Shown here: piece by piece, positions 10,663 through 63,308 of the stretch
How the letters are laid out: each line of letters opens with the position of its first letter
How positions within the stretch are numbered: position 1 is the stretch's first letter
DNA from: Scilla litardierei
Taxonomy: Eukaryota > Streptophyta > Magnoliopsida > Asparagales > Asparagaceae
DNA: 64,000 bases
Direction of reading: 5' to 3'
Assembly: GCA_030789695.1 (NCBI GenBank)
Contig: JAULAV010003347.1
Location: forward strand, 1-64,000
Position numbers and translations under genes: made by a program
The notes under the pieces: generated by a model
Told to the model about the DNA's origin: nothing
What the model saw: only the letters and a program-made list of their open reading frames with translations
Database searches by the model: none

Positions 10663-11024
10663 TGGTCGGTCCTGAGTATACACCCAAAGAACGGTTGTAG
10701 TTTTACCGCAAGCGCACGGTGTAGCGGCGAGCGGGATATCGAACACAGGGAGGACGAATGACCGTGCTTGCTCCTAATTAACCTGGCTATTTAAGAATAG
10801 AGAAAATTGCCTTGGGCGATCCTGTCACAATCGTCAGACAAATGTGCGAAATATCAAATCAAAATAAAGAACGTCTAGGGAATGGGGAATTCCCGCTACT
10901 CACCGTATTTCATAAATGCGGTTCGTCGGTATCAAAATTGCTAGAATGAGAATTCGGATGAACTAGTTGCAACTAAATGTGTAACCAAGCTCATGCTCTC
11001 GCGTTGTTGCCGGTCTATAGCTAT

Positions 11025-11328
11025 CCTAGGTTTGGGTCCAATCTCTTGCAAACCCTAGCCTAGGAAAACTAGCATTAGGATCAACATCATCGTCCAATTG
11101 CGCACCGAGCCCAATCTCTTGCAAACTCGGTCCACAATCTAAATTAGGATAGTTCCTACCCGTCCAATCTCTTGCAAACAGGTATTGGCATGTAATTGCA
11201 ATCGGAAATCCTGGTATCGGTCCAATCTCTTGCAAACCGATACTTCGAAAATCCGACTCCAACCCAATTCGGATTTCTAGGGCTTCCTATCAAATTGGGA
11301 TCCAATCTCTTGCAAATCCCAATTGATA
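11025..11328 (-). other. Constant-loop, variable-stem hairpin array (3' LTR)
   Basis: Five hairpins share the 16-base loop TCCAATCTCTTGCAAA (first base C in the second), starting at 11037, 11110, 11163, 11221 and 11301. Stems differ: CCTAGG..GGG with CCC..CCTAGG; ACCGAG with CTCGGT; TACCCG with CGGGTA; GTATCGG with CCGATAC; and a 12-bp stem with TCCCAATTGATA. Here one base of the third stem has changed (CAGGTA); the partner LTR keeps it intact. A further hairpin, AAATCCGA with TCGGATTT, lies at 11249-11276. The array is 360-700 bases downstream of the TATA box, so it should be in the RNA leader. Confidence 0.85.
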
Positions 11329-11713
11329 TGAATACCTAGCAATCCGTAGTAAATCGATCCCAATCTAATCTCTAATAGCAATTCTAGCTCAATTTCTACC
11401 AATTCATCACAAATATGAAAGTGGGCTTGTAGGGTTCATCCCCACGCCCCAAGACGTGGAGACTACTCACAAATCATAGCAAGATCACAAAAATAATCGT
11501 TGAGATAAGCAATAGAATTCATCACAACAATGATATAAACAATAAAAATAGAATTTTTAGGGAAAAGAGATGAAAACCAATGTAGTTCTTCAATTAATCC
11601 AACAAAAATCCAAGTTTTGCTCCTTCTCCAATCACAAGAATAAAGCTAAAAAACTAATCTAAAAAGCAGCAAAAAATCTCAGAGAGAGCTCTCAAAACTA
11701 GGGTAAAAACAGG

Positions 11714-11724
11714 GCTTAAATAGC
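11714..11724 (-). promoter_or_regulatory. TATA-like box of the Athila-like 3' LTR
   Basis: Minus strand GCTATTTAAGC. It follows the palindrome cluster by about 80 bases. The 5' LTR has the identical site at 21807-21817, which would drive the genomic RNA. Confidence 0.55.
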
Positions 11725-11805
11725 CCCAAAAATCGTCCAAAAATCGTGACCAAAATACCCCTGCACAGCCTGTTTTCCGCAGTTTTCGCTACAGGCAGCG
11801 CAGCG

Positions 11806-12185
11806 CACTCGGCCGAGTGACAAAAGTCGCTCGGCCGAGTGAAAACCCTGCAATTTTCCAGTAAGTCGGGTCTTTCAGGGGTCTTCAGTTCGGGGGCGGC
11901 TCGGCCGAGTGAGTTGTCGTCACTCGGCCGATGACTTCACTGCACTCGGGCGGACGGGATTTACCACTCGGCCGAGTGGGTCTTCTGAAGTTCAGGCAGC
12001 CGAAAACAGTAACTTCGATGTTTTGGAAGGGCTCCGTCTGGGCGCCACTCGGGCGGACGTGGTATCGTCACTCGGCCGATGTGGTCTTCGGTGCTCGGCC
12101 GAGTGCACATAGAAATCGTGTCTGAACTGGTCGGCCGAGCAGTGTCTCGCTGGTCGGCCGAGTGGCTCCTCCACTCGGCCGAGTG
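11806..12185 (-). promoter_or_regulatory. CACTCGGCCGAGTG palindrome cluster (3' LTR)
   Basis: About a dozen full or degenerate copies of the 14-base palindrome CACTCGGCCGAGTG lie within 380 bases, upstream of the TATA-like box. The core CGGCCG is nearly invariant while the flanks vary (for example GGTCGGCCGAG, CTCGGCCGATG). Confidence 0.85.
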
Positions 12186-12479
12186 GGACACAAAAAATGC
12201 CCAATCTGCTTGTTTTGGCCTCCTCGTCGCTCCTGCGACGTCCATTCTTCTTCCGCTCCTCTCCAACAGCAAAATACCCCTCGGGGAGGTCGTCGGTGAC
12301 CGTCTAGAGTAAGCGCATCTCGAGATCACTCCAAATCGCGCCAAATCACTTGAAATGCGACAAAAACAACAAATCGTGAAAAGCATCGCAATATCGTCGA
12401 TATATCGTGAAAAACATGATTTGGGCGATCTAAATGGCATGCAAACATGCGGAAAAAGGTGTAAAATAAGGAGTGATCA

Positions 12480-14435: not shown

Positions 14436-16611
14436 CTAAGAAGGTGGTGCTGCGCCGTCTCCGTCCTGAGGCGGAGGTGGTGGTGGTGGTGGTGTAGGCT
14501 GCTGAGCTGGGGTGGGCGTGGAAGTGGAAGCAGGTCTAGTGTGTGTGGAAGTGTGTGTGGGAACCTGCTGGGTGGGTGGGGGTACGCATGGGAGACGCTC
14601 CAAGACCTGTGTAAGGCAGTAGTGGATCTGGGGGATCAGCTCGAAGCGTCCAGCCATCGCAGAGACGGTGGAGGACAGGGTCCTAAGGTCACCTCTAAGA
14701 CCACTCACCGCCAACTCAAGAGCATGTATGCTCTGCAGTACAGTGTCGGGCGGGGGTGGTGCAGAGGGACGCACCGGTCTAGGCTGTGCAGGGCGAGGCT
14801 GGCGTACGCGAGTAGAGTATGTAACGGGCTCAGCAGGGAAGGGGACAAAAGGTGCCGTGCCTGCAAATGTGGGCCTGGCCTCAGTGTGAGGCCGGGACAT
14901 GCGGTGAGAAGTGGAGGCAGCGGCATCGAAAGAAGAGTGCAAAAGTGGCTGCGAGGCGGCTAGAGAGGTCAGTGGCACAGAAGTGTGGACAGACGCCACG
15001 ACGCTCTCAGAAAATACAGCAGGGGTGGAGACAGAGGTAACTACCGCTGGGGCGGAAGTGTGTGGACCAAAAGGCGCAATCCCAGCGGAGATCATGCTAG
15101 CCATGGTCTCCAAGACCGCGGCAAACGAGGGCTCTCCACTCTCGACAAAGGTCGGCGGGCGCTCAGGGAGTGCGGAGCAAAGAGGCTCCACGGACAGAGG
15201 GCCAGAGGTGGCAGTGGGAGTGGTGGTGACAGCCTCGGAAGTGGTGACAGTGGTGGAAGTGGGCTCAGCAAAAGTACTCTCGACACCGACAGCGGTGTCA
15301 GGAGCAGCGGAAGCATCTGGTATGGGCTGAGAGGCCACTGGGTCAACAGGGTCGGCGGCAGGCTCGGCAGGGTGTGCAGCAGGGTCTGCGGGGGGGGGCA
15401 GCGTGGGCAGCGTGGGCCTGCTCGGCCTCCTCGGCCTCGAGCACGTAGGCAGCGGGGATGAGAACATCCATCGCAGGGAGCCAGTCGACGTGGGCTGGTG
15501 CAATCTGAGTCCGAGCAGGGCTCGGGAGAATCATGTAGTCGGCACCGTAAGGGCCGTGCAACCAGACCCAGTGACGCTCACCATGCGAACGAAGCATCTT
15601 CATCCGGGCCATAACGTCTATCGACAGAGAAGTGGGGCCCGGGACGCGTCGCAAGTCGTCAGGTATGTCCTTGCCGGTCATCATGGTAAGCAAGGTGATC
15701 AGACCGCCGCAGCATATCGGTGAGCGAGCGCCCACCGATACAATGATGCGGTCTAAAAACCAAGCCGCAATGTCGATCACGACGGCGGGGACAAGCTCGG
15801 CTCCATCCCTAGATAGAGCTCTGGGACGAGTCATCGCATAGAGCATGTAGAGCTCTGGCGTAGACATCGTGCCCGGCTCATATCTGGCCAAAAAGGTGGT
15901 CGCCATGAGGCGCTGGGCTATGCGGAGGCAGGGGTGGACAATGGTCGAGGCCTTGGCCCTACTAGGGTCAAAGGCAGCGTGGTGACCCGTAATCCGGGCC
16001 CAGAAGGCACCAGCGTCGAAGGAAGGTGGGGGGATATGGGTGGGGCCGTAACCGCGATCGGCACCGGGGACAGCGGGCCACGAGAAGAATGCTCTCATCA
16101 TATCGAGAGTGACCTGGCACTCTCGATCCATGAACCGGAATGAGCATCCCTCGTCGGTCCGGGCGATCGAACTCAAAACCTCAAGTGTCGGGCGGGTAAA
16201 AGTATCCGCCGACACCTGCAGAAAATCTCGCCAGCCCACGTTGTCGTACAACGTGAGCATCCCCTCTAGTACCCCCAGGCGTCCTAGGTCAGCGAGGTGT
16301 GCAAACCTGGAGGGTACGATCGAGCGCTGGGAGATACGCTCGAAGACGGCGCGGTGTGCGTCGTCTCGGAACGTAATCCCGAGCGGCCCGACCAGTGGAG
16401 CCGGTGGTGGTGGCTGTGGGTCGGCGGGGAGAGGCTGTGCGGGCTGTGGGTGCACTGCAGGCTGTGCGGGGTGTGCGGGGCCTGCAGGCTGTGCTGGGTG
16501 TGCGGGGGACGGTGGAGGAGAGTCCTCCAACTCGTGGGAGGGGCCGGCATCATCCGACCGCTTCCGCTTAGCGGAAGCTCTCTTCGACCGCGGCCGTGTC
16601 CGGGGCGGCAT
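14436..16611 (-). pseudogene. Third ORF (Athila ORF, env position) with one frameshift
   Basis: The frame starts at 16611 with MPPRTRPRSKRASAKRKRSDD, a basic, likely nuclear-localising stretch, followed by a Pro/Ala/Gln-rich segment (about residues 25-75). A folded domain follows (about 80-380; motifs LADLGRLGVLEG, FRFMDRECQVTLDMMRAFFSW). A run of nine G at 15390-15398 shifts the frame. The second frame (15503 to 14436) continues with a Pro/Ala/Thr-rich tail and a short heptad-like segment (LQSIHALELAVSGLRGDL). It resembles the ORF downstream of pol in Athila elements and the plant-transposon domain family. No signal peptide or clear membrane helix is visible, so a true envelope role is doubtful. 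The frameshift could also be a homopolymer sequencing error. Confidence 0.7.
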
Positions 16612-17169: not shown

Positions 17170-17494
17170 ACTCGGCCGAATGACGTGGCACTCGGCCGAG
17201 CGTTACCAATGAAAATTTCCTCCCCGCCATCGCTTCGGCCGAGTGGCTTTGCCAGACTCGGCCGAGTGGAGTAAGTCCATTCGGCCGAGTGACTCAAGCT
17301 ACTCGGCAAGACTCGCCCTAGGAGGGTATCCGTTTTACTCGGCCGAGTGACAATATATACTCGGCCGAGTAGCAGTTATATTGAAATCAGGAAAATAAAC
17401 AGAGAGTTGGGTACAGCAGACTTCCCTCGTTCGTGAGCGGCTCGGCCGGACGAACTTGTATACTCGGCCGAGTGACTAGTATGCTCGGCCGAGT
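17170..17494 (-). promoter_or_regulatory. Internal CTCGGCCGAGTG palindrome cluster
   Basis: About eleven full or degenerate copies of the same palindrome found in the LTR U3 recur in the spacer between gag-protease and the third ORF. Intervening sequence is not LTR-like, so this is not simply an internal LTR copy. Confidence 0.82.
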
Positions 17495-17823: not shown

Positions 17824-20595
17824 TCAATGCGGGATGTTTGGTGCATATGAGATGCACCCATCAAACTTTCCGGGGAGAACGCTTGGATTGGGAAGTTGCG
17901 GCGTAGTGTTCTCCCGCGGTGGTCTCTCGTCTCGAATAGTGTTGGGGGGAGGCTCCCCCAAGCTAGCATTTGCTCCGGTCAACGGTTTTGCCGGTGATGC
18001 CGGTTTCCGTGCCGGCGGAGCTTTCTTCGGAGACTTTAATTTCGAGAGCTTGCAGAGCTCTCGAATCCTTGCGACATCAGCGTCGCCTTCATCATCTTCA
18101 GCGGAGAGGTCGGGGGAATCATTTTTCTTCTCATCGTGGCCTAAATCCGGGCCTTCCTCGAAATCTTCGTCAAAAAGAGCGCCAATTGAGTGAGGGATCG
18201 CCTCCTCTATCACCTCATCAAGGAGGTCCATGTAGTCAAGTTCCTCGTGGTAAGGCATGTGCTTCATGGCCTTAGGAATGTGGAGCTCCACCTCGATGTT
18301 TCCGACGTTTAAAGTTAGGGTACCTTCGCGCACGTCGACGATGACTCCGGCGGTGGCTAGGAACGGGCGTCCAAGTATCAATGAAGTGTCTCCCTCCTCC
18401 TTGACGTCCATGATCACGAAGTCACATGGCAAGCATATTCCACCCGGGACTTGTAGCGGTATGTCTTCGGCAATCCCCACCGGCCTTGTTATCCGTCCAT
18501 CGGCTAATTGAATGCGCATGTCGGTGGGTTTCAACTTTGTCCCGGTGTTTAACCTTAAGAACATGGAGAGAGGCATGAGGCTCACACTAGCCCCAAGATC
18601 AACCAACGCCTTTTGAAGAGGGACGCCGCCCAAGGTGCAAGGAATCCGAAAACTCCCCGGGTCTTTGAATTTTGCCGGCTCCTTCTCTCTCTTGGTGAAC
18701 CAAGAACCCTCCTCGGCTAGCATGATCTTCTCCTTCCTTTTCCTCCCCGAAATCAAGTCCTTCAAAAATTTAGCATACGTGGGGATCTCGACGATGGCGT
18801 CAAGGAAGGGAATGTTAAGGCTAACTCCTCTTAGGTACTCGAGAAATTTTGCTAGCCTTTTCTCCATTTTCGCTCTAGCGAGCCTTTGGGGGAATGGAAC
18901 CGGTGGCATGAAGCGCCTTTCCTCAATCAATTTCTCCGCTCTAGATTTCTCTTTGTCTTGTGGCTCCTTCTCCTTTTCAACTTCAACTATCGGCTCAGTT
19001 GGCTCCAAGCTTTCCTCCACGGGCTCCTTAATAGGAATCATGGCGGGGGTGGTGTCCTTCCCGCCTCTAGTAGTAACGGCAACTACGGCATTGATGTGGC
19101 CCGTGTTGCCCCGTGGGTTTTGCTCCGGTTGCGCCGGCAATCTTTGAGTGTTCCGATTGAGCAACGCCAATTGCTCCGATATTTGAGCCACAACGGTATT
19201 AAGGGAGTCTTGCCCCGCCTTCAAGCTAGCATTTACCTTATTTTGCTCGACCATGAACGCCTCCACTCTAGTTTCGAAGTCGGATCGTTGTGGAGCTTGT
19301 GGAGGGTTTTGATTTTGATTCCTCCACCCTTGGTTGTATCCGGGAGGCCTATATGGTGGAACTTGTTGCTTTGGTTGAAAGTTTTGTTGTGGAGGCCCCC
19401 TCGGTGGATAGTATTGTTGTTGGGGTGGTGGTGGTCGAGCTTGTTGAGGTGGTTGTTGTGGCGGGTTCAAAGCTCCTTCATTGTTGGCGTAAGAGAATCC
19501 GGGATGATTTCTTGTGGCCGGATTGGCCCAATATCCTTGGTTCCCCGCAACATATTGTACTTGCTCCAAGGATCCTTCTACTTGCTCTCCTCCCGAGTAC
19601 ATGGCTTGAGATTGGTCTTGCCAATCACACATTTGGTTCGTCGGCGCGGAGGTGGAAGGGGTCCCTTGGGGCTCCGTGATGAACTTCTCCAATCTCTCCA
19701 CTACCTTGTGGAGAGAATCAAATTTGCTCGTGAGCTCCGCTACGGCCTTTGCCTCATAGATGCTAGTTGGCTTTAAGGAGGAAGTAGAGTGTCCTCGCTC
19801 ATCGCCCCATTGTTGGTTATTTGAGGCCATCTCCTCAATTAGGGCCGTAGCTTCCTCGGGAGTCTTTGACAAGATTGCACCATTCGCCGCGGCATCAATA
19901 ATTTGTTTGGTCCCCGGTTGGAGACCGTTGTAGAAGCTATGCACTAGCTCCCAATCTTCTATACTGTGGTGCGGGCATTGGTGCTGCAAATCCTTAAAAC
20001 GCTCCCAAGCCTCATAGAGCGTCTCCTGCGGTCCTTGCTTGAAGGACATGAGAGCGCTCCGGATCTTCACCGTCTTGGATGGCGGGTAGAATTTGTCAAT
20101 GAATGCACTTGCCAACTCGTCCCAAGTGGTGAAAACTCCGTCAGCCTGCGTCCTTAACCAATAGAGTGCCTTGTCCTTTAGCGTGAAAGGGAAGAGACGC
20201 AGTCTGATGGCATCGATGGAGACCCCCGTCATCTGAAATGTGGCGCACTTCGACAAGAATAGTTGGATGTGGTAGTGGGGGTTCTCATGGGCGTTCCCAT
20301 GAAATGGGTCTTGTTGCATCAAAACCACCAATCCAGTCTTTAGCTCGAAGTTCTTGTCAGCCGCCAACTGCGGCATGGCAATGGACGAGGTAGTAGAAGA
20401 GGTCTTAGGCCGAAGCCTATCGCGAATAGAAATTATCCTCGCCATCCTTGCCGCCAATTCTTCAGGAGTTTCCGGGTTGGTCATATACCTCCCTTCCGGA
20501 TCTTGTCTTCTCTCCGCTCTAAGTCTCCGCGCGGTACGTTCGATCTCGGGATCAAATAATAAAGCTTCAGGGTCCGCCGTAGATCTCGTGTTCAT
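17824..20595 (-). CDS. Gag-protease polyprotein of the Athila-like element
   Basis: One open frame of 923 codons. A retrotransposon gag (capsid) domain lies at about residues 95-265 (motifs LFPFTLKDKALYWL, FIDKFYPPSKT, ETLYEAWERFKDLQHQCPHH). A Gln/Pro-rich linker follows (about 350-470). A retropepsin-like domain has the aspartate of DLGAS at residue 665 and a later LILGRPFLAT. Gag packages the RNA and the protease matures the particle. Athila proteases usually read DLGAS rather than DTGAS. The frame then ends after a Pro-rich tail with no reverse transcriptase; in complete Athila elements pol would follow. The start at 20595 is the first ATG after the primer site. The intact frame fits a recently mobile, trans-complemented element. 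Confidence 0.9.
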   Translation of the reverse strand: MNTRSTADPEALLFDPEIERTARRLRAERRQDPEGRYMTNPETPEELAARMARIISIRDRLRPKTSSTTSSIAMPQLAADKNFELKTGLVVLMQQDPFHGNAHENPHYHIQLFLSKCATFQMTGVSIDAIRLRLFPFTLKDKALYWLRTQADGVFTTWDELASAFIDKFYPPSKTVKIRSALMSFKQGPQETLYEAWERFKDLQHQCPHHSIEDWELVHSFYNGLQPGTKQIIDAAANGAILSKTPEEATALIEEMASNNQQWGDERGHSTSSLKPTSIYEAKAVAELTSKFDSLHKVVERLEKFITEPQGTPSTSAPTNQMCDWQDQSQAMYSGGEQVEGSLEQVQYVAGNQGYWANPATRNHPGFSYANNEGALNPPQQPPQQARPPPPQQQYYPPRGPPQQNFQPKQQVPPYRPPGYNQGWRNQNQNPPQAPQRSDFETRVEAFMVEQNKVNASLKAGQDSLNTVVAQISEQLALLNRNTQRLPAQPEQNPRGNTGHINAVVAVTTRGGKDTTPAMIPIKEPVEESLEPTEPIVEVEKEKEPQDKEKSRAEKLIEERRFMPPVPFPQRLARAKMEKRLAKFLEYLRGVSLNIPFLDAIVEIPTYAKFLKDLISGRKRKEKIMLAEEGSWFTKREKEPAKFKDPGSFRIPCTLGGVPLQKALVDLGASVSLMPLSMFLRLNTGTKLKPTDMRIQLADGRITRPVGIAEDIPLQVPGGICLPCDFVIMDVKEEGDTSLILGRPFLATAGVIVDVREGTLTLNVGNIEVELHIPKAMKHMPYHEELDYMDLLDEVIEEAIPHSIGALFDEDFEEGPDLGHDEKKNDSPDLSAEDDEGDADVARIRELCKLSKLKSPKKAPPARKPASPAKPLTGANASLGEPPPNTIRDERPPRENTTPQLPNPSVLPGKFDGCISYAPNIPH

Positions 20596-20730: not shown

Positions 20731-20748
20731 TCCCCGGCAACGGCGCCA
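20731..20748 (-). other. Primer-binding site, tRNA-Asp type
   Basis: Minus strand TGGCGCCGTTGCCGGGGA, six bases after the 5' LTR end. This is the primer site characteristic of Athila/Tat elements. Confidence 0.88.
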
Positions 20749-21116
20749 AAAACTTGGTCGGTCCTGAGTATACACCCAAAGAACGGTTGTAGTTTTACCG
20801 CAAGCGCACGGTGTAGCGGCGAGCGGGATATCGAACACAGGGAGGACGAATGACCGTGCTTGCTCCTAATCAACCTGGCTATTTAAGAATAGAGAAAATT
20901 GCCTTGGGCGATCCTGTCACAATCGTCAGACAAATGTGCGAAATATCAAATCAAAATAAAGAACGTCTAGGGAATGGGGAATTCCCGCTACTCACCGTAT
21001 TTCATAAATGCGGTTCGTCGGTATCAAAATTGCTAGAATGAGAATTCGGATGAACTAGTTGCAACTAAATGTGTAACCAAGCTCACGCTCTCGCGCTGTT
21101 GCCGGTCTATAGCTAT

Positions 21117-21420
21117 CCTAGGTTTGGGTCCAATCTCTTGCAAACCCTAGCCTAGGAAAACTAGCATTAGGATCAACATCATCGTCCAATTGCGCACCGA
21201 GCCCAATCTCTTGCAAACTCGGTCCACAATCTAAATTAGGATAGTTCCTACCCGTCCAATCTCTTGCAAACGGGTATTGGCATGTAATTGCAATCGGAAA
21301 TCCTGGTATCGGTCCAATCTCTTGCAAACCGATACTTCGAAAATCCGACTCCAACCCAATTCGGATTTCTAGGGCTTCCTATCAAATTGGGATCCAATCT
21401 CTTGCAAATCCCAATTGATA
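21117..21420 (-). other. Constant-loop, variable-stem hairpin array (5' LTR)
   Basis: Same five hairpins as at 11025-11328. Here the third stem is fully paired (TACCCG with CGGGTA). Because this is the 5' LTR, these hairpins would be in the leader of the genomic RNA (loop UUUGCAAGAGAUUGGA) between the cap and the primer site. Confidence 0.85.
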
Positions 21421-21897
21421 TGAATACCTAGCAATCCGTAGTAAATCGATCCCAATCTAATCTCTAATAGCAATTCTAGCTCAATTTCTACCAATTCATC
21501 ACAAATATGAAAGTGGGCTTGTAGGGTTCATCCCCACGCCCCAAGACGTGGAGACTACTCACAAATCATAGCAAGATCACAAAAATAATCGTTGAGATAA
21601 GCAATAGAATTCATCACAACAATGATATAAACAATAAAAATAGAATTTTTAGGGAAAAGAGATGCAAACCAATGTAGTTCTTCAATTAATCCAACAAAAA
21701 TCCAAGTTTTGCTCCTTCTCCAATCACAAGAATAAAGCTAAAAAACTAATCTAAAAAGCTGCAAAAAATCTCAGAGAGAGCTCTCAAAACTAGGGTAAAA
21801 ACAGGGCTTAAATAGCCCCAAAAATCGTCCAAAAATCGTGACCAAAATACCCCTGCACAGCCTGTTTTCCGCAGTTTTCGCTACAGGCAGCGCAGCG

Positions 21898-22279
21898 CAC
21901 TCGGCCGAGTGACAAAAGTCGCTCGGCCGAGTGAAAACCCTGCAATTTTCCAGTAAGTCGGGTCTTTCAGGGGTCTTCAGTTCGGGGGCGGCTCGGCCGA
22001 GTGAGTTGTCGTCACTCGGCCGATGACTTCACTGCACTCGGGCGGACGGGATTTACCACTCGGCCGAGTGGGTCTTCTGAAGTTCAGGCAGCCGAAAAAC
22101 AGTAACTTCGATGTTTTGGAAGGGCTCCGTCTGGGCGCCACTCGGGCGGACGTGGTATCGTCACTCGGCCGATGTGGTCTTCGGTGCTCGGCCGAGTGCA
22201 CATAGAAATCGTGTCTGAACTGGTCGGGCCAAGCAGTGTCTCGCTGGTCGGCCGAGTGGCTCCTCCACTCGGCCGAGTG
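21898..22279 (-). promoter_or_regulatory. CACTCGGCCGAGTG palindrome cluster (5' LTR)
   Basis: Same dozen-copy cluster as in the 3' LTR. One copy near 22224 has been altered by a one-base insertion and a substitution. Confidence 0.85.
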
Positions 22280-22574
22280 GGACACAAAAAATGCCCAATC
22301 TGCTTGTTTTGGCCTCCTCGTCGCTCCTGCGACGTCCATTCTTCTTCCGCTCCTCTCCAACAGCAAAATACCCCTCGGGGAGGTCGTCGGTGACCGTCTA
22401 GAGTAAGCGCATCTCGAGATCACTCCAAATCGCGCCAAATCACCTGAAATGCGACAAAAACAACAAATCGTGAAAAGCATCGCAATATCGTCGATATATC
22501 GTGAAAAACATGATTTGGGCGATCTAAATGGCATGCAAACATGCGGAAAAAAGGTGTAAAATAAGGAGTGATCA

Positions 22575-26852: not shown

Positions 26853-27059
26853 TGTAAGGATCGTCTTACCCTTGCAATACTAACAACACACACTAGAGGT
26901 GGGGTGAATAGTGTAATGGCAATACAATTGTTCAATTAAAATTAAACTGGCAAATGCGGAATAATAAATGCAAGAGGAAATAATTGACACAATTAATCCA
27001 AATGCAAACACAAGATTTTACACTGGTTCCCCTAACTTGGGTACGTCCAGCCACACCAA

Positions 27060-27358
27060 TATTCACTATAATCCCACAAAGAGAAGTGAATACAAATCTC
27101 ACAAGGAGATACCCCACCAAGAGGATTTTTCCCTACACAAGGACCCAACCAACCCTACACGAGGGTCAAAACTCCCACCTAGAGAATTACTAACTCCCAC
27201 TCAGAGAATTAGGGTTAGCCCTACACTAAGACACCAAACTCCCACAAAGAGAGTTACTCCCACAAAGAGAGTTATTCCCACAAAGAGAATATCCTAATCC
27301 CACAAAAAGATAAACTCCCACAAAGAGAGAAAGACTAATTCCCACAAAGAAAATTAGT
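27060..27358 (-). other. Constant-loop hairpin array of the gag-only element (3' LTR)
   Basis: Stem pairs flank repeats of TCCCACAAAGAGA: TATTCACT/AGTGAATA (27060-27092), ATCTC/GAGAT, ACCCT/AGGGT, CTAA/TTAG, AACTC/GAGTT (27237-27255), TATTC/GAATA (27273-27291), ACTAATT/AATTAGT (27334-27358). The loop CCACAAAGA (RNA sense UCUUUGUGG) is constant in the last ones while stems change and still pair. Confidence 0.75.
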
Positions 27359-27618
27359 GTTACAAGAATCACCAAGTAAAATAAATACTCTTACCTATGC
27401 CTTGAGATGCTTACTCATATATGAATGGAAGGCATGGAAGAGGATCTCCAAGTGTTGAGATTGGCTTGAAAGCACTTGGATGATTTCCCTTGAGCTGGAC
27501 TTCAATGCATGAAGAGGAATGAGTGCTCAAAGAGGAAAATTGAGAGAGTTTAGGAGTGGCTTATAAAACTCTTATAATTTGCAATTGCATCAAGAAGTTC
27601 TAATGAACTCAGCACACC

Positions 27619-31780: not shown

Positions 31781-33551
31781 TGTAAGGATCGCCTTACTCT
31801 TGCAATACTAACAAAACACACTAGAGGGGGGTGAATAGTGTAATGACAATAAAATTGTTCAATTAAAATTAAACTTGCAAATGCGGAATAATAAATGCAA
31901 GAGGAAATAATTGACACAAGATTTTACCCTGATTCCCCAAACTTGGGTACGTCCAGCCACACCAATATTCAGTATAATCCCACAAAGAGAAGTGAATACA
32001 AATCTCACAAGGAGATACCCCACCAAGAGGATTTTTCCCTACACAAGGACCCAACCAACCCTACACGAGGGTCAAAACTCCCACCTAGAGAATTACTAAC
32101 TCCCACTCAGAGAATTATGGTTAGCCCTAAACTAGGACACCAAACTCCCACTAAGAGAGTTACTCCCACAAAGAGAGTTATTCCCACAAAGAGAATATCC
32201 TAATCCCACAAAGAGATAAACTCCCACAAAGAGAGAAAGATTAATTCCCACAAAGAGAATTAGTGTTACAAGAATCACCAAGTAAAATAAATACTCTTAC
32301 CTATGCCTTGAGATGCTTACTCATATATGAATGTAAGGCATGGAAGAGGATCTCCAAGTGTTGAGATTGGCTTGAAAGCACTTGGATGATTTCCCTTGAG
32401 CTGGACTTCAATGCATGAAGAGGAATGAGTGCTCAAAGAGGGAAATTGAGAGAGTTTGAGAGTGGCTTATAAAACTCTTATGATTTGCAATTGCATCAAG
32501 AAGTTCTAATGAACTCAGCATACCCATATATATAGAAGCCATAAATCAACCCTCAAAACCCAAGAAAACAGCCAAAGGCACAAGACATCAACGGCTAGAA
32601 ACAGGGCGAAAACGACAGCGACAGTCGACTGATGATCAAAACAAAGTCGACTGATCAATAGCTAGAAAATATCCAACGGCTATAATCTGAGCCAGGACAG
32701 TCGACTGATGAAGTCGATACAGTCGACTGTGAACAGGACAGGCGCCTGTAAAACCTTCAGCAGGCGACTGCTGCAGGGGATGGAATAAAACAGAGAGCTG
32801 CACTCTTTCTCTAGATAAGCATACAGGCGACTGATGTCAATAATACAGTCGACTGTAAAATAGTCAGGCGACTATAAAACCTTCATCAGTCGTCTGCTGC
32901 AGGAGATGGAGAAAAAACAGAAAGAGGCAGAGAATGCACTTACGCTACTCATACGACTGTTGACCAATTCCCAGGCGACTGTAAATATACAGGCGACTGT
33001 AAACTGTGCAGCAGTCGACTGTTGCGTAAAGCTCAAGTAGAGTCAATGGAAATGTTGACTTGAGCAGTGCATATCATTTGACTGTAGAAGGATCAACAGG
33101 CGACTGGAAATCAGCCAGTCGACTGTAAATCCCTCATCAGGCGACTGATGGAAAGCCAGAGACTCCAAGTGAGTCTTTGGACAAGATGAACCTATTAGGT
33201 TAGATTCTATGATAATCCTAAGGCTCACTAAGATGGTTAAATGCATATGCCTGTATGAGTAGACCATATATCAAGACATTACATTAACCTAGACTCAAAT
33301 GAGAGAGAAAGCAATAAGAAAATATTATCATGATGCCTTGATGCTCTCCATCATCTCCAAGCTTTGGCACCCCTTAAGTCCAAGCTTTTGCCCTTCTTCA
33401 CTTGATATCCATCCTTGCACCAAGTGTTTAGTCTGCAAGAAAGATATTCTAGAACTGAAACTGTGAGACTAATATAAGAGAGTCATTAGCAACAACGTAA
33501 TGTTGTGATCATCATCAAAATAAGATTGGTATGAAACACCAATACTCAACA
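31781..33551 (-). mobile_element. 5' LTR of the gag-only element
   Basis: On the minus strand it starts TGTTGAGTATTGGTG and ends CGATCCTTACA. The palindrome cluster (32631-33150), TATA box (32525-32535) and hairpin array (31975-32275) are all present. The outer stem of the first hairpin carries one mismatch here (ATTCAGT). Confidence 0.9.
32631..33150 (-). promoter_or_regulatory. Palindrome cluster, 5' LTR of the gag-only element
   Basis: Same CAGTCGACTG family as the 3' LTR. Individual copies differ between the two LTRs (for example CAAAGTCGACTG and CATTTGACTG), so motifs decay and vary independently. Confidence 0.8.
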
Positions 33552-34109: not shown

Positions 34110-35510
34110 ATGGGCCAACCCCTTGTAACCGAACTACCGTGCTCGTCGTCAGCCGTAAGCCTAGGGGACACACCCTCGTTACTAAACAACATCCTTCGTC
34201 AGCCGTAAGCCGAAGGGCCAATCACTCACCGTTGAACGACCTTCGTCATCCACCGTAAGTCGAGGGGCCAACCCCACGCCACTGAACGAAATCCATCGTC
34301 AGCCGTAAGCTGAGGGGACATACCCTCGCCATTGAACTATATCCGTCGTTATCCATAAGCCGAAGGCCAACCACTCGCCACTGAACGACATCTGTTGTCA
34401 GCCGTAAGTCGAGGGGCCAACCCCTCGCCACTGAACGCCATTCGTCGTCAGCCATAAGCCGAGGGGGCAACCCCTCACCACTGAACGACATTCGTCATCA
34501 GCCGTAAGTCGAGGGGACACACCCTTGCCACTGAACGACATTCGTCGTTCAGCCGTAAGCCAAGGGACCAATCTCTTGCCACTGAACGACCTTTACCGTA
34601 AGCAGTACACCGAGGGGCCAACCCCTTGCCACTGAACAACATCCATCGTCAGCCGTGAGTCGAGGGGCCAACCCCTCGCCACTGAACTACATCTGTCGTC
34701 AACCGTGATTCGATAGGCCAACCCCTCGCCACTGAACTATATCCATTGTTAGCCGTAAGCCGAGGGGCCAACCCATCGCCACTGAACGACATCCGTCGTC
34801 AGCCGTGAGCTAAGGGGCCAATCCTTTACCACTGAACGACCTTCGTCGTCAGCCGTAAGCCGATGGAACATACCCTCGCCGCTGAACGGCCTTCCACATC
34901 AGCCGTAAGGTGAGGGACCAACCCCTCGACACTGAACAATCTTCGTCATCAGCCGTAAACTGAGGGGCCAACCTCTCGCCACTGAACGACATCCGTCGTC
35001 AGCAATAAGCTGAGGGGACACACCCTTGCCACTGAACGCAAGCCAAGGGGCCAACCCCTCGCCACTGAACGACATTCATCGTCAGTCGTAAGTTGAGGGG
35101 ACACACCCTTGCCACTGAACGACAACTCGACCAACCTTCGTCGTCAGCCGTAAGCCGATGGACCATCCCCTTGCCACTGAACGAAAATATTCATCGTCAG
35201 CCGTAAGTCGAAGGGACTAATCCCTCGTCACTGAACGACTCCAACTTTGTCGTCGGTCATAATTTAAAGGGGCCATCCCCTCGCAGCCAAATGACAGTTC
35301 TTGTCATCGGCCGTAAGCCGAATGTGCCACCCCATCGCAACCGAATGACATTCCTCCTTGTAGACCGTAAGTCGAAGGGACCTTCCCTTTATCACTGGAC
35401 GACACTGAACGACATTCACATCGTCGGTTGTAAGTCGAAAGGGCCATCCCCTCACAACCGAACGACATCTGTTGTCGACCGTAAGTCGAAGAGGCCACCT
35501 CACTGACTGA
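34110..35510. repeat. Tandem array of a roughly 50-base unit
   Basis: About 27 diverged copies of a unit built on GTCAGCCGTAAGCCGAGGGG and CCAACCCCTCGCCACTGAACG. Each unit can form a hairpin GAGGGG-CCAA-CCCCTC. Later units (35230 on) are longer and more diverged. It lies just upstream of a polypurine tract and LTR Z, the place where Tat-lineage elements are known to carry tandem repeats in the 3' untranslated region. Frames within it come from the repeat. Confidence 0.88.
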
Positions 35511-43139: not shown

Positions 43140-43626
43140 CACTACTACAAAAGGGACCTTTAACAGCGCTTAAATGAGATCTTTGATAGCGCTTCTGCGT
43201 GCTGTCTATCTCGCCACTGCTAAAGGGGGGCTGGTTTTAATAGCGCTTTACAAGCGCTGTCAAAGGTCCAATAGACAGCGCTTTTTAGTATAAGCGATGT
43301 TAAAGGTCCACCATAGACAGTGCTTGTACTAAAGAAGTGCTATCTATTGGAACCTTTAACAGCTTGTTAAGTACAAGCGCTGTTAAATGTCTCAATAGAC
43401 ATCACTTCTTTAGTTTAAGTACTGTTAAAGGTCCACCATAGACAGCGCTTGTACTAAAGAAGCGCTGTCTATTGGAACCTTTAACATCGCTTGTTTATAC
43501 AAGCGCTGTTTATGGTAGACCTTTAACAGCGCTTGTACTAAAGAAGCGCGGTCTATTGGAACCTTTAACAGCGCTTGTTTGTACAAGCGCTGTCTATGTT
43601 GGACCTTTAACAGCGCTGTCTATGGT
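43140..43626 (+). mobile_element. CACTA transposon terminus with subterminal repeats
   Basis: It starts CACTACTACAAAAGGGACC, a typical CACTA terminus. Many direct and inverted copies of ACCTTTAACAGCGCT and AAGAAGCGCTGTCTATTGG follow, as in the transposase-binding subterminal region. It is interrupted at 43626 by Ty3 element G2, so the rest of the transposon would lie beyond the window. Confidence 0.75.
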
Positions 43627-46076
43627 TGTAACGGCCTGTTTTTCTAGTCGTATTTTGACTATTGTGTGCGTGTATTTTTACTTCGTTGATCCGGTTATTT
43701 TCATCTGAGTGGTTATTCGTCCGCATGTCGACGCGAGCGCGTCGTCGTTTTCAGGGTACCGGAGCGTAATTTCGTAATTTTTATCTGTAAATCATGATTA
43801 TTTTTAATTAAAAAGTTAATTATTAATTACCTTTAACTAAATTACCTTTACTAATAACTTTTTCTAAAACTACCTTTACCCAATTACTTTTACCCTAAAC
43901 CCTAACCTACCCAATTGAATCCCACCGAAAGAATCGGTGAGATCCAACATCTGTTTTCATTCCTCCCCTACCATCAACCACCCCCTTCAAAGAGCTGTCC
44001 CCTCCATCCCCCGTTGTTAAACCAACCTACAAGAACCGAACACACAGTAGCAATCATCATCAGCCACCCCCTCCCCATACAACGACGATAAGCCACCACA
44101 AAGAGACCAGCAACAACATCATCATCGTCACAACAACCAGCAGCCACCACAACGACAACCCAACATCTTCTCCTCCACAATTCAGCCATCCAACTCCTTA
44201 CAAGCCAAAATCAAACCAAAAATCCCCATTCAAACCAGAAATCAAAACAAACTAGATCTGTAACCAAAAACCCAAAATCAACCAATTGCAACCCAATTTC
44301 AGAAATCAAAAATCCCCTCCGACAGCCGCCGTGCACAGCCCCCTACCCGCCGTCGCCCCGACCGCCCTCTTTGTCGCCTGGGAATCATCGACGCCGCGCC
44401 CCGAGCTCGGATCTGAGCCGCCGTGCCTCGGAACCCGCCCCCACCGTGATCCCGCCTCCGATCCGACCGTCCCCGCCTTGATCGCCGTCGCCGCTCCGGA
44501 GAACCGCCCCGCCGCCGCTTCAAAACTGCCCCGCCGCCGCTCCGGAGAACCGCCCCGACGCCGCCTTGGCCCGTGCCCGCCCCGATCCGCCGCCTGAGCC
44601 CCCCTGCTGACCGTTCCCCCCTTGCGCCGCCAAACCCCCTCAAACGCCGCCCCTTGCCCTTTCACCTGCAACAAAAAGAGAGAGGGAAAGAACGAAAGAC
44701 AGAGCAGAACAGAACGAGAAAGAGACAGAGTGAGAAGGAGTGAGAGGTAAAGTTTTAAAGTGTTATTATATTAGATGTTATAAGACTTATAAGCTAAGTT
44801 AATTTTTCTAAAGTTAAGTTATAAAGATAGTTTATTAAATAAGTTAAGTAAGAGTGTTATGCTAAGTTTAAAATTAAAGTTAAACATGATTTTTAAAATA
44901 AGTTATAATATAAGTTATTACAGCAAGTTATTTAATAAGTTAATAATTTCAAATCTATAGTAGTTAAAATAGTAAGTAGATGCTATTATTATTATGTAAC
45001 TAACTTGCCATGCAACGTATGTGTACCAGGTATCCCTATCGTTGTCCAAACGCGCATTTCGCTACAAGGCGAAATCGATAACTCACAGTACCCTAGCTAT
45101 GGAGTTTAAAAATAATATTGATGCATGCTAAATTAGTTTCTTTTCATCAGCAAAGTGATTCACATGAACCGTTAGCTAAATTTGATATGTTGCATAGCAT
45201 CGTAAGTTGCACCGTATCATAAATTGAATTGAATTGGACTCCGTGACAGGTTTAACCGAAAGAGATAACTGGAAAAGTGAGAATGGTAGTTGACTCGTAA
45301 ATTGTAAATATGATAACCTGCACACACACATGGGGTTTGGGGTAACTTATAATAGCGGAAGTGCGGGAGCGACCAGTCTGATCTTTGTAATGCACAATAT
45401 CGATTTGTTGAATAGTACCGATTTGTTGAACAGTATTGTTTTGTTGTAACCCGGGATATCAGGTGGACTCTTGGTTGCTTACCGTACTACCCATTATATG
45501 TCACGAACTAGGATCAGGCACAACTAAAAACCTCTGGTCTTTTTAATATTGTTTATTGTTGACAGAATTGTGATAGTGGTAAATCTGTTATGTTACTTTT
45601 CTGCTCTATTGTACGCACTTTACTTATTGTCTCTTTAGATTGCCATGCTAGTTTTGCCATGTTAGTTTATTGTTTTAAATATCATGCTAGAGATACTTTG
45701 AGTTACGTCTGATCCTGGCGACCCTTCCTTTGGTGGTGGACTCGCCAGATAACCCCCAGGTCGAGGAGTTTGCACCAGAGGCTGTAGGCACTGAGTTTGT
45801 GGTTGAGTTTGACCAGCAGGACCAGCATGACCCTGAGTATTGAGAGTGAGTGTGGGAGTTTTATTATGTTGCTTTCAGAGTGGTTTGATGTATTTTGTAT
45901 TCTGTTGTATTTTTCCTTTTCCTGTTAGCTGCTGGGTTGTAATAAGGTTGTAAAACCACTTTCATTATCAGTATTTTGACGTATTTCTGCAACAGAGCCT
46001 GTGTTGACTTCATTGGTGCCTAGCAGGACTTGTGCATGTTCCAAACAGTAACGGGCCCCGAGAGTGGGTCGTTACA
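43627..46076 (+). mobile_element. 5' LTR of Ty3/gypsy element G2 (2.45 kb)
   Basis: Bounded by TGTAACGGCCTG and GAGTGGGTCGTTACA, the same terminal style as LTRs A-C. It shares a block with LTR B (GTGCGGGAGCGACC at about 45360 and 7285). GC-rich Pro/Arg-coding-like sequence at 44330-44640 is followed by a possible splice donor (GAG/GTAAAG at 44747) and a CAG acceptor at 45029. It is inserted in the CACTA terminus. Confidence 0.85.
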
Positions 46077-51938: not shown

Positions 51939-52295
51939 GAACCTAGGTCATTTCTATCTTCAACAGAGTTGCCATTAAGAGATTCATTGAGTTCTAAAGA
52001 GATAGCTATTCTCCCTCAAATCTAAAGCTCTCTTCCTCACAAGAAACCCATTCTCTCTCATTTCTAGATCTAGAGAGAAGCTTGTTCTTGGTGAGCTCTT
52101 CAAGCTATTGCTTGATTCAAGTTTCCAAATCTTCCCTAGGCACCCATTGCTGCTCATTTCCTTGGTGCTAGGGTTTGGTAACTTCATCTTCCTCAAATCC
52201 TTCATTCCACCTTTTGGGTAAGAAAAACTCAAGGTATAGGATTTTGTGGTAAGAGTATTTATTTCATATTAAACTCTTTTATATTGCTTATTGGC

Positions 52296-52492
52296 TCTCT
52301 CGGTTGTGAGAGAAGTTTGTGATCCCGGGTTGTGGGATTCACTTTGCCATTGCATGTATGATTTGATCTTGTGAAGGTTTTTCACAAGATATTCATAGTG
52401 GAAATCTTGAGTTAGGGTTTCTAACTCAAGTATCCGGAGGGGATCCGGGTGGTTGGGACGTAGGATCACCGGGAACAAGTCGGGGAGACTTG
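52296..52492 (+). other. Hairpin array in the Sirevirus leader
   Basis: Six stem-loops whose loops all begin GG: TCTCTC/GAGAGA loop GGTTGT (52296-52313); GTGATCCC/GGGATTCAC loop GGGTTGT (52319-52342); ATCTTGTGAA/TTCACAAGAT loop GGTTT (52366-52390); CTTGAGTTAG/CTAACTCAAG loop GGTTT (52406-52430); CCGGA/TCCGG loop GGGGA (52434-52448); CAAGTC/GACTTG loop GGGGA (52476-52492). All lie after the TATA box and before the primer site. Confidence 0.82.
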
Positions 52493-61565: not shown

Positions 61566-63308
61566 TGTTGAATATTGGACTCCCCGGATTTGGTTTTGGA
61601 TGATGAGCAAACATAAATACTTCATGAACTAACAATTTGTGAGCGAAGTATTGGAGATCGTCGCCAATTTCACGAGAATATTCAAAGCGACATCTCAACA
61701 CTTCCAAAAGCTCGTTTTCATGCCTAAAGCTTCGTTGAAGCTCTTGCGACGCTTTGGAAGTAATGAAGATTCAATCGAAGCTCTCAAAGACCGTTTATTA
61801 AGGTTTTATTTATAGTCTTTTAGTTTCGATTGATAGAATGTTAAGCCTTGAGTATATCTTACGTTTCTATCTTCATTACGCTCATTTCGTAGCTCTAGGA
61901 TTCTTGCACAAGGTCACTCTAACTTCCTCGAAGCGTCGCGCTTCGATTCGGACTTTGTTGTGCATGTTAGTTGGTACAAGAACAAGTACTGACCGACTAG
62001 ATGGTGATCTAGTCGGTCGGCCACTGTTCTTGGACCGACTAGTTTCTGTCAGTTAATTCTTAGCTCTTTACTGTTTACAGTTAGTCGGTCTATGTTGACT
62101 CACCGACCGACTAGTTTGTGAACTAGTCGGTCAGTGATGCTTCTTTGACCGACTAGTTGAGACTGACTGTTCACTCTAAAATTCTCCTAAGCTACTGTTT
62201 ACCGTTAGTCGGTCTAAGAACGTTTGATGACCGACTAGTTGACAATCTAGTCGGTCAACTTTTGTTCTTGGACCGACTAAGTCAACTTGCCTTCAGACTA
62301 TGTTGTTTTGCCTCTTAGTCGGTCTACGTTCATTGGATGACCGACTAGTTGTGAAACTAGTCGGTCAGACAGTGTTCTTGGACCGACTAGTTTTCTAGGT
62401 CTGAAATTCTATCTCCTCTCAGATCTGCTCTTAGTCGGTCCATGCTTTGTGACTGACCGACTAGTTGATGAACTAGTCGGTCAGTGAGTGTTCTTTGACC
62501 GACTAGATCTCACAGATTTCTTTCCGTTGGAGATTGAACTAACTTGTTTTTATGGGTCCCTATAAATACGAACCTAGGTCATTTCTATCTTCAACAGAGC
62601 TGCCATTAAGAGATTCATTGAGTTCTAAAGAGATAGCTATTCTCCCTCAAATCTAAAGCTCTCTTCCTCACAAGAAACCCATTCTCTCTCATTTCTAGAT
62701 CTAGAGAGAAGTTTGTTCTTGGTGAGCTCTTCAAGCTATTGCTTGATTCAAGTTTCCAAATCTTCCCTAGGCACCCATTGCTGCTCATTTCCTTGGTGCT
62801 AGGGTTTGGTAACTTCATCTTCCTCAAATCCTTCATTCCACCTTTTGGGTAAGAAAAACTCAAGGTATAGGATTTTGTGGTAAGAGTATTTATTTCATAT
62901 TAAACTCTTTTATATTGCTTATTGGCTCTCTCGGTTGTGAGAGAAGTTTGTGATCTCGGGTTGTGGGATTCACTTTGCCATTGCATGTATGATTTGATCT
63001 TGTGAAGGTTTTTCACAAGATATTCATAGTGGAAATCTTGAGTTAGGGTTTCTAACTCAAGTATCCGGAGGGGATCCGGGTGGTTGGGACGTAGGATCAC
63101 CGGGAACAAGTCAGTGAGACTTGGGTGGATCCGAACCCATTAACTTCATTTGTTAGCATTGTTAATTTCATTGTTGTCATTCAATTTAAGCTTCCGCAAA
63201 TTGACTTGGTAGTTGTGTGCAATTTAATTTGGAATAATACGCCTTATTATTTTAAAGTACTATTCACCCCCCCTCTAGTACTTGTGCAGTAGCTGGTAGG
63301 GCATTACA
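61566..63308 (+). mobile_element. 3' LTR of the Sirevirus
   Basis: 1743 bases, same landmarks as the 5' LTR. Palindromes 61991-62506, TATA 62561-62569, hairpins 62927-63123. One hairpin loop differs (AGTGA instead of GGGGA) with the stem unchanged, and one stem pair differs (GTGATCTC). Confidence 0.95.

Follow-up and report, generated by a model that had tools for sequence, protein, structure and literature searches.

The window analysed here, a stretch of 64,000 nucleotides of Scilla litardierei DNA, holds an LTR retrotransposon on its minus strand, the 5' LTR of which is bounded by TG...CA (Table 1). Filed on its domain content, it is probably an Athila-type element (Ty3/gypsy, OTA), because it carries both a gag-protease ORF (PF03732, PF13650) and an ORF with an ATHILA ORF-1 domain (PF03078; 46.9 bits, against a Pfam cutoff of 20.2). 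The ATHILA ORF-1 domain is given as present in 16% of Athila elements (PMC6317226). Transcription probably starts near position 21782, about 30 nt downstream of a TATA-like box. Between this box and the primer binding site (PBS), at 21110-21438, lies an array of five hairpins, which is therefore expected in the RNA leader and should lie about 340-670 nt from the putative transcript start. Three further features of the element were seen in passing. A repeated palindrome, CACTCGGCCGAGTG, is found at 21910-22290 (minus strand), upstream of the TATA-like box, and resembles the repeat boxes of Sireviruses. Positions 19961-20066 (plus strand), antisense to gag, match the plant C/D snoRNA snoR71 (40.9 bits, cutoff 40), and the stretch between capsid and protease in the window Gag (17824-20595, minus strand) is partly rich in proline and glutamine.

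Table 1. Features of the window (positions within the 64,000 nucleotides) and what each assignment is based on
Feature	Position	Strand	Basis
5' LTR	20755-22574	-	self-BLAST, 99.4% identical to 10663-12479
3' LTR	10663-12479	-	twin array at about 11025-11328
TATA-like box TATTTAAG	21807-21814	-	sequence
Primer binding site (PBS) TGGCGCCGTTGCCGGGGA	20731-20748	-	sequence
gag-protease ORF (923 aa) lacking a CCHC zinc knuckle	17824-20595	-	PF03732, PF13650; motif scan
ORF with ATHILA ORF-1 domain	15343-16611	-	PF03078, E = 2.3e-12
Hairpin 1 and outer arms	21362-21438, tip 21393-21408	-	predicted fold; core pairs 601/623 cells paired, 39 arrays
Hairpin 2 and outer arms	21276-21360, tip 21313-21328	-	predicted fold; core pairs 508/544 cells paired, 39 arrays
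Hairpin 3	21250-21275, tip 21255-21270	-	predicted fold; core pairs 381/390 cells paired, 39 arrays
Hairpin 4 and outer arms	21188-21231, tip 21202-21217	-	predicted fold; core pairs 597/623 cells paired, 39 arrays
Hairpin 5 and outer arms	21110-21163, tip 21129-21144	-	predicted fold; core pairs 534/545 cells paired, 39 arrays
Similar-looking array in a Sirevirus-like copia LTR, tip UCUUUGUGG	27050-27370, twin 31960-32310	-	fold z = -4.2
Third array-like set in another Sirevirus-like LTR, GGUUG/GGUUU tips	52290-52440, twin near 62921-63071	+	hairpin listing

A sequence-only reading of this DNA had described five hairpins with a common 16-base motif and self-complementary arms, and motif positions, shuffles and arm pairing bear this out. 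The motif, TCCAATCTCTTGCAAA, stands on the plus strand at 21129, 21202 (where the first base is C), 21255, 21313 and 21393, and again at the corresponding places of the other LTR (11037-11316), which confirms the twin array reported there. With up to three mismatches allowed, the window holds 11 matches against an expected mean of 1.01, and none of 100 shuffles reached 11. The innermost 6-nt arms pair with their own partner at 6, 6, 6, 6 and 4 of 6 positions, versus 1-5 of 6 with wrong partners. The arms of hairpins 1 to 4 thus pair best with their own partner, but for the inner arms of hairpin 5, the weakest of the set, two wrong partners do equally well; the helix of hairpin 5 depends in the predicted fold on GGG/CCC and on the outer stem. 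Such outer stems extend several of the hairpins, the longest having 29-nt arms with 79% complementarity (21362-21438). Different hairpins have only 2-8 of 12 stem bases in common, and the tips follow one another in the RNA at irregular distances (80, 58, 53 and 73 nt); the array is therefore no plain tandem repeat, as had been argued. The folding check proposed at that time gave -129.2 kcal/mol for the array versus -87.8 (sd 4.9) for 100 dinucleotide shuffles (z = -8.5), none of which was as stable. A single base within 14 nt of the tips distinguishes the two LTRs of the window; it changes a C-G pair of hairpin 3 to U.G, which leaves the pairing intact. A search of Rfam over the array assigned it to no family, the sole match listed (E up to 5) being mir-4875 at 25 bits, against a cutoff of 90.

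The array is very abundant. The motif has 139,488 exact matches in the 3.68-Gb host genome, and the reversed control has 0; since an array holds at most five, we estimate at least about 28,000 arrays. For a covariation analysis, we took 37 array regions at the beginning of contig C1 (148 Mb) and aligned them with the two arrays of the window; all genome copies come from the first 6.5 Mb of this one contig. The resulting 39 rows, with a minimum pairwise identity of 0.72 and a median of 0.82, are not fully independent, because some are likely the 5' and 3' LTRs of one element. Over the 130 predicted pairs, 93.1% of cells are paired, versus 26-46% in slid registers; the percentage is biased towards the structure, because the fold was computed on a member of the alignment, the window's own sequence. 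Changes on both sides of a pair occur in 27 of the 130 pairs (214 cells), versus 7-13 pairs and 15-40 cells in the slid registers; examples of compensation are CCC/GGG versus UUC/GAA in hairpin 3 and CGG/CCG versus UGG/CCA in hairpin 2.

When the changes are placed on the tree of the 39 arrays, the internal branches carry 14 two-sided changes that keep a pair, 75 one-sided changes that keep it and 33 that break it, and the terminal branches 0, 66 and 82, respectively. Pairing is thus kept rather than broken 89 versus 33 times on internal branches and 66 versus 82 times on terminal ones, the pattern expected if the structure is selected in active lineages and decays after insertion. The 14 two-sided single-branch changes compare with a mean of 0.98 and a maximum of 5 in a partner-permuted null, and none of 300 permutations reached them. 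Adding 20 arrays (59 in all) left 7018 of 7572 cells paired and gave 12 two-sided events on internal and 2 on terminal branches, against a permuted mean of 0.59 and maximum of 5 (200 permutations). Parsimony ties were broken by alphabet in the 39-array tests and at random in the 59-array and tip-pair tests. Two loci with fewer recognised tips (L055, three; L075, four) were excluded from the 59-array set, and from the ten gag-bearing loci compared below; L023, with no recognised hairpin 5, and L008, with a 1-nt deletion in a tip, were kept in the set. The covariation check called for by the sequence-only reading thus finds stem changes mostly compensated and supports its proposal of selection for structure together with a constant tip.

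One part of the original description, that of an open 16-base loop, does not stand: the tip is itself folded. All five hairpins share the same predicted order, in which the stem is followed by the pairs U1-A16 and U2.G15, a 2-nt UG bulge, a 3-bp CAA/UUG helix and a GAGA tetraloop. The open loop is rejected because tip pair 7-12 covaries. Among the 59 arrays, this pair is C-G in 43, A-U in 13, U.G in 2 and a gap in 1 for hairpin 4, and A-U in 43, C-G in 14 and U.G in 2 for hairpin 5, with three two-sided switches between A-U and C-G on internal branches of the tree and zero mismatches in the two hairpins. Tip position 16 alternates between A and G (29 and 30 of 59 in hairpin 5), keeping either U-A or U.G, and the other tip positions show a single base in 55-59 of 59 arrays. 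The mean frequency of the majority base is 0.977 in the tip, versus 0.86 in the rest of the array. As a counter-case, pair 5-14 of hairpin 1 is broken to C-A in 4 of the 59 arrays, partly shared by descent. The array is a real and strongly selected RNA element, and a more structured one than first described.

Which elements carry it was examined through the PBS. The pattern TTTTTGGCGCCGTTGCCGGGGA has 19,894 copies in the genome, and the LTR regions flanking 40 of them were scanned with a strict hairpin descriptor (stem, 2-nt bulge, 3 bp, GNRA). Two to five such hairpins are found in 22 of the 40 regions, and 18 are array-free: 16 gave zero hits and two (L078 and L079) one unrelated hit each. 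Block shuffles gave a mean of 0.00-0.15 hits per locus; for the descriptor and loop scans (50-60-nt blocks) and for the region identities below, the shuffles keep base composition only. As a separate observation, two PBS copies lie 88 bp apart at one Athila-type locus (G000, contig C1, near 4730737).

The array is not confined to elements with the window's gag, which is matched at 12 of the 22 array loci, and left without a match at the other 10, in the roughly 4 kb that follow the PBS. Eight of these 10 fall into two groups. The first is a gag-less family of five (L053, L061, L067, L070, L082), the internal sequence of which is unlike that of the window except near its end, where, at 3.6-3.8 kb, it matches the terminal 60-120 nt of the internal region of the window with 79-93% identity; therefore, the entire internal part of this family was read. 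In the corresponding downstream loci (L086, L090, L105, L108, L112), the internal part measures about 3.6-3.8 kb and both element ends are kept; L090 contains a 542-aa ORF with no Pfam match. The second group (L065, L066, L071), which we call pol-first after a reading of 4 kb past the PBS, shares a 3.9-kb stretch and keeps the array. In all three loci, an RT-RNase H-integrase ORF directly follows the PBS, as judged by a Pfam search of one of them, L066, whose 837-aa ORF contains reverse transcriptase, RNase H and integrase H2C2 domains, and no gag. Further downstream in this group (L104, L092 and L109 for L065, L066 and L071), there follows a stretch that matches, at 89%, the 3' portion of the gag-protease ORF in the window. 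Other kinds of gag may be present in both groups. The internal sequence of the gag-less family also occurs at L074/L117, yet the 1.6 kb that precede the doubled PBS there contain no array.

Pairwise alignment of the full fetched sequences with the window, against a shuffled baseline of mostly 0.35-0.41, shows which regions these elements have kept. In the five gag-less loci, identity is 0.957 in the tips, 0.727 in the remaining array, 0.522 in the leader before the array, 0.621 in the leader after it, 0.762 in the 130 nt immediately preceding the PBS and 0.515 in the sampled U3 (versus 0.350 when shuffled). The same six regions give 0.972, 0.818, 0.695, 0.747, 0.815 and 0.721 in the ten gag-bearing loci, and 0.969, 0.870, 0.783, 0.807, 0.884 and 0.858 in the pol-first loci. 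The array and the PBS end are thus the best-kept regions, most clearly so in the gag-less family, but the LTRs show relatedness over their whole length. Since the LTR of the gag-less family is recognisable outside the array, the sharing is in part due to common descent.

A C-x2-C-x4-H-x4-C motif is absent from all 22 array loci and present in 10 of the 18 array-free ones. Seven of these ten have a gag 35-37% identical to that of the window; the other three (L046, L047, L077) have another motif at about 292 nt and no gag match. We do not claim that presence of the array equals loss of the zinc knuckle: only 12 of the 22 array loci match the window gag, and two array-free loci (L052, L063), with a gag 43-62% identical in parts, have neither knuckle nor array. 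Knuckle loss and array are therefore not tightly linked. Nor is absence of the knuckle a mark of the whole Athila clade, since Diaspora, an Athila relative, has CX2CX4HX4C in its gag (PMC1142308). L052 and L063, together with L045 (which has no gag match and clusters with them by LTR), each have just one hairpin, the tip of which reads CAC-GAGA-GUG or CAU-GAGA-GUG. It stands at -389 to -408, counted from the PBS end, near the usual place of hairpin 5, which is -403 to -421 in many arrays. This suggests that the array may have grown from one hairpin. A de novo scan of the 18 array-free loci for shared loops found no words in 17 and three in L048, two from a CCCGCCTG palindrome and one AT-rich; a looser scan of the same loci for bulged GNRA hairpins hit 5 of them once each. 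Motif pairs gave 0 hits in the viral and prokaryote contigs scanned, as did gag in viral contigs.

We propose that the array serves for multivalent recognition of the genomic transcript through its 5' leader, most likely as a packaging signal read by Gag, and give this reading a probability of a little under one half (about 0.47). Each of the five hairpins would present the same tip on a stem that is largely free in sequence as long as pairing is kept, and a protein that multimerises, most likely the Gag encoded by the element itself, would bind one RNA many times through these equal tips; because there are several of them, multiple binding of one RNA would select it for particles. RNA of relatives that lack gag and keep the array would also be taken into particles. 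Starting from the structure, its covariation, the constancy of the tip and the sharing with elements without recognised gag, as observed above, we infer that Gag binds the array and that the RNA is packaged through it. Packaging by Gag, which the sequence-only reading gave as an example, is the best-fitting role in view of leader position, retention in elements with no recognisable gag and a Gag without knuckle; selection on structure and tip stands independently of it. The conservation pattern would fit a packaging signal, and any trans-acting reader would do.

Indeed, the sharing fits a host RNA-binding protein equally well. Simple retroviruses have a constitutive transport element with repeated identical internal loops in free stems, and the array might similarly be bound by a host protein and serve nuclear export, stability or translation. 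A constant tip on free stems, several copies, a leader position and occurrence in elements without recognisable gag would all be explained in this way. A host factor should, however, be available to every relative, whereas 18 of the 40 loci that share the PBS are array-free, and we regard this explanation as somewhat unlikely.

A selected DNA feature is improbable. Palindromes able to form cruciforms, or a protein-binding site in several copies, would make up such a feature, in line with proposals for the U3 repeat boxes of Sireviruses; the inverted repeats are nearly perfect, and the same LTR has the CACTCGGCCGAGTG palindromes upstream of its TATA-like box. The array itself lies downstream of that box, and the direction of stem changes favours one RNA strand. 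On internal branches of the 39-array tree, Watson-Crick pairs changed to G-U versus A-C in a ratio of 49:13, and on terminal branches of 57:43 (Fisher p = 0.006). With 59 arrays, the ratios are 50:20 and 97:69 (p = 0.077), departing from 1:1 with p = 0.0004 and p = 0.036, respectively; the larger set weakens the contrast between internal and terminal branches, no longer clearly different, which speaks for a DNA feature. In both sets, changes to G-U outnumber those to A-C on the internal branches, and we see in this a moderate argument for the sense RNA, rather than a DNA cruciform, as the selected molecule. A palindrome box of the Sirevirus U3 kind was rejected for the position of the array downstream of the TATA-like box and for its differing stems.

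Dimerisation through the loop, also suggested originally, finds no support. In a dimer initiation site array, the tips would kiss through UUGCAA, which is self-complementary, is present in most tips and is their sole 6-nt palindrome. In the predicted fold, however, it lies in the bulge and inner helix, outside the apical loop; that loop, GAGA, is not self-complementary, and the palindrome is absent from the CAC-GAGA-GUG tips (those with C-G in hairpin 4, 43 of 59, and in hairpin 5, 14 of 59). We consider such an array still more improbable than a DNA feature. Ordinary tandem duplication with unselected structure, which five similar units in 300 bases might bring to mind, is contradicted by the covariation and by the dissimilar stems, and has next to no chance of being right.

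Several structures with a shared small motif and variable stems are familiar from alphaviruses and some coronaviruses, with their multi-stem-loop packaging signals, and from the constitutive transport elements of retroviruses; these differ from the array in belonging to other viruses, with other motifs and proteins. Among LTR retrotransposons, the Ty1 leader contains kissing hairpins that are rescued by compensatory change and have a proposed role in dimerisation and packaging (PMC5454406). The array resembles them in its expected leader position and compensatory changes, but Ty1 is described there as having two different hairpins with complementary loops, unlike the five copies of one tip seen here. 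Sirevirus LTRs have boxes of repeated motifs, likewise many palindromic units in plant LTRs, which are similar between divergent families; their place is upstream of the TATA box, and a CGG-CCG palindrome is conserved in them, whereas the array lies downstream and has free stems and a constant tip (PMC2829016). BARE2 is unable to produce Gag but has retained conserved signals, and BARE1 particles package it (PMC3735527). It parallels our case as a plant LTR retrotransposon, and our gag-less family would likewise keep a signal; BARE is, however, a copia element, for which the portions of that source relied on here describe no repeated hairpins with a shared tip. In the plant reverse-transcribing viruses CaMV and RTBV, a structured leader exposes a coat protein site (PMC5902531); the site there is a single purine-rich one atop one large stem-loop, in contrast to five equal hairpins. 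Our searches of one open-access library, to which these statements are confined, brought up no account of such an array, in agreement with the sequence-only reading, which knew of none. They also gave no paper with both "Athila" and "packaging signal", and no account of how an Athila element selects its own RNA.

Similar-looking arrays occur in Sirevirus-like LTRs of the same window (Table 1). That of the copia LTR at 27050-27370 beats its shuffles, none of 100 being as stable. When the window was scanned, without shuffle control, for hairpins that have a 9-base loop word in common, five groups were listed, including the Athila and copia arrays; the other three lie at 2146-2498, 17273-17464 and 43464-43821. 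Elsewhere in the window, a diverged tandem-repeat block with a periodicity of about 50 bp (self-BLAST offsets) extends over 34110-35380. The Sirevirus-type PBS has 12,310 matches in the genome, and ten loci (L123-L132) were folded. In these folds, UUUGU- or UGUGU-type tips appear in L123, L126 and L129 (only one in L129), and GGUUG- or GGUUU-type tips on differing stems in L125, L127, L128, L131 and L132; L124 and L130 have neither type as a clear set. By the folds, then, 8 of the 10 Sirevirus-type leaders appear to carry similar-looking arrays of repeated-tip hairpins, with the one-tip case of L129 included. At four Sirevirus-type loci, two PBS copies lie 65 bp apart (G000, contig C1, near 11380736, 11456662, 11777282 and 11883325).

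Taken together with the Athila array, this leads us to a wider and more tentative proposal, to which we give about one chance in three: plant LTR retrotransposons would use repeated hairpins, with a lineage-specific tip on drifting stems, as an address read by Gag. Here the Gag would be one without a zinc knuckle, gag-less relatives would persist by keeping the address, and Sireviruses would use other tips in the same manner. The array provides a compact candidate, supported by covariation, for how Athila picks its own RNA, and one genome offers a comparison set of gag-bearing, gag-less, pol-first and array-free relatives. The mobilisation of elements without gag thereby becomes directly testable, and the RNA motif can be searched for in other plants.
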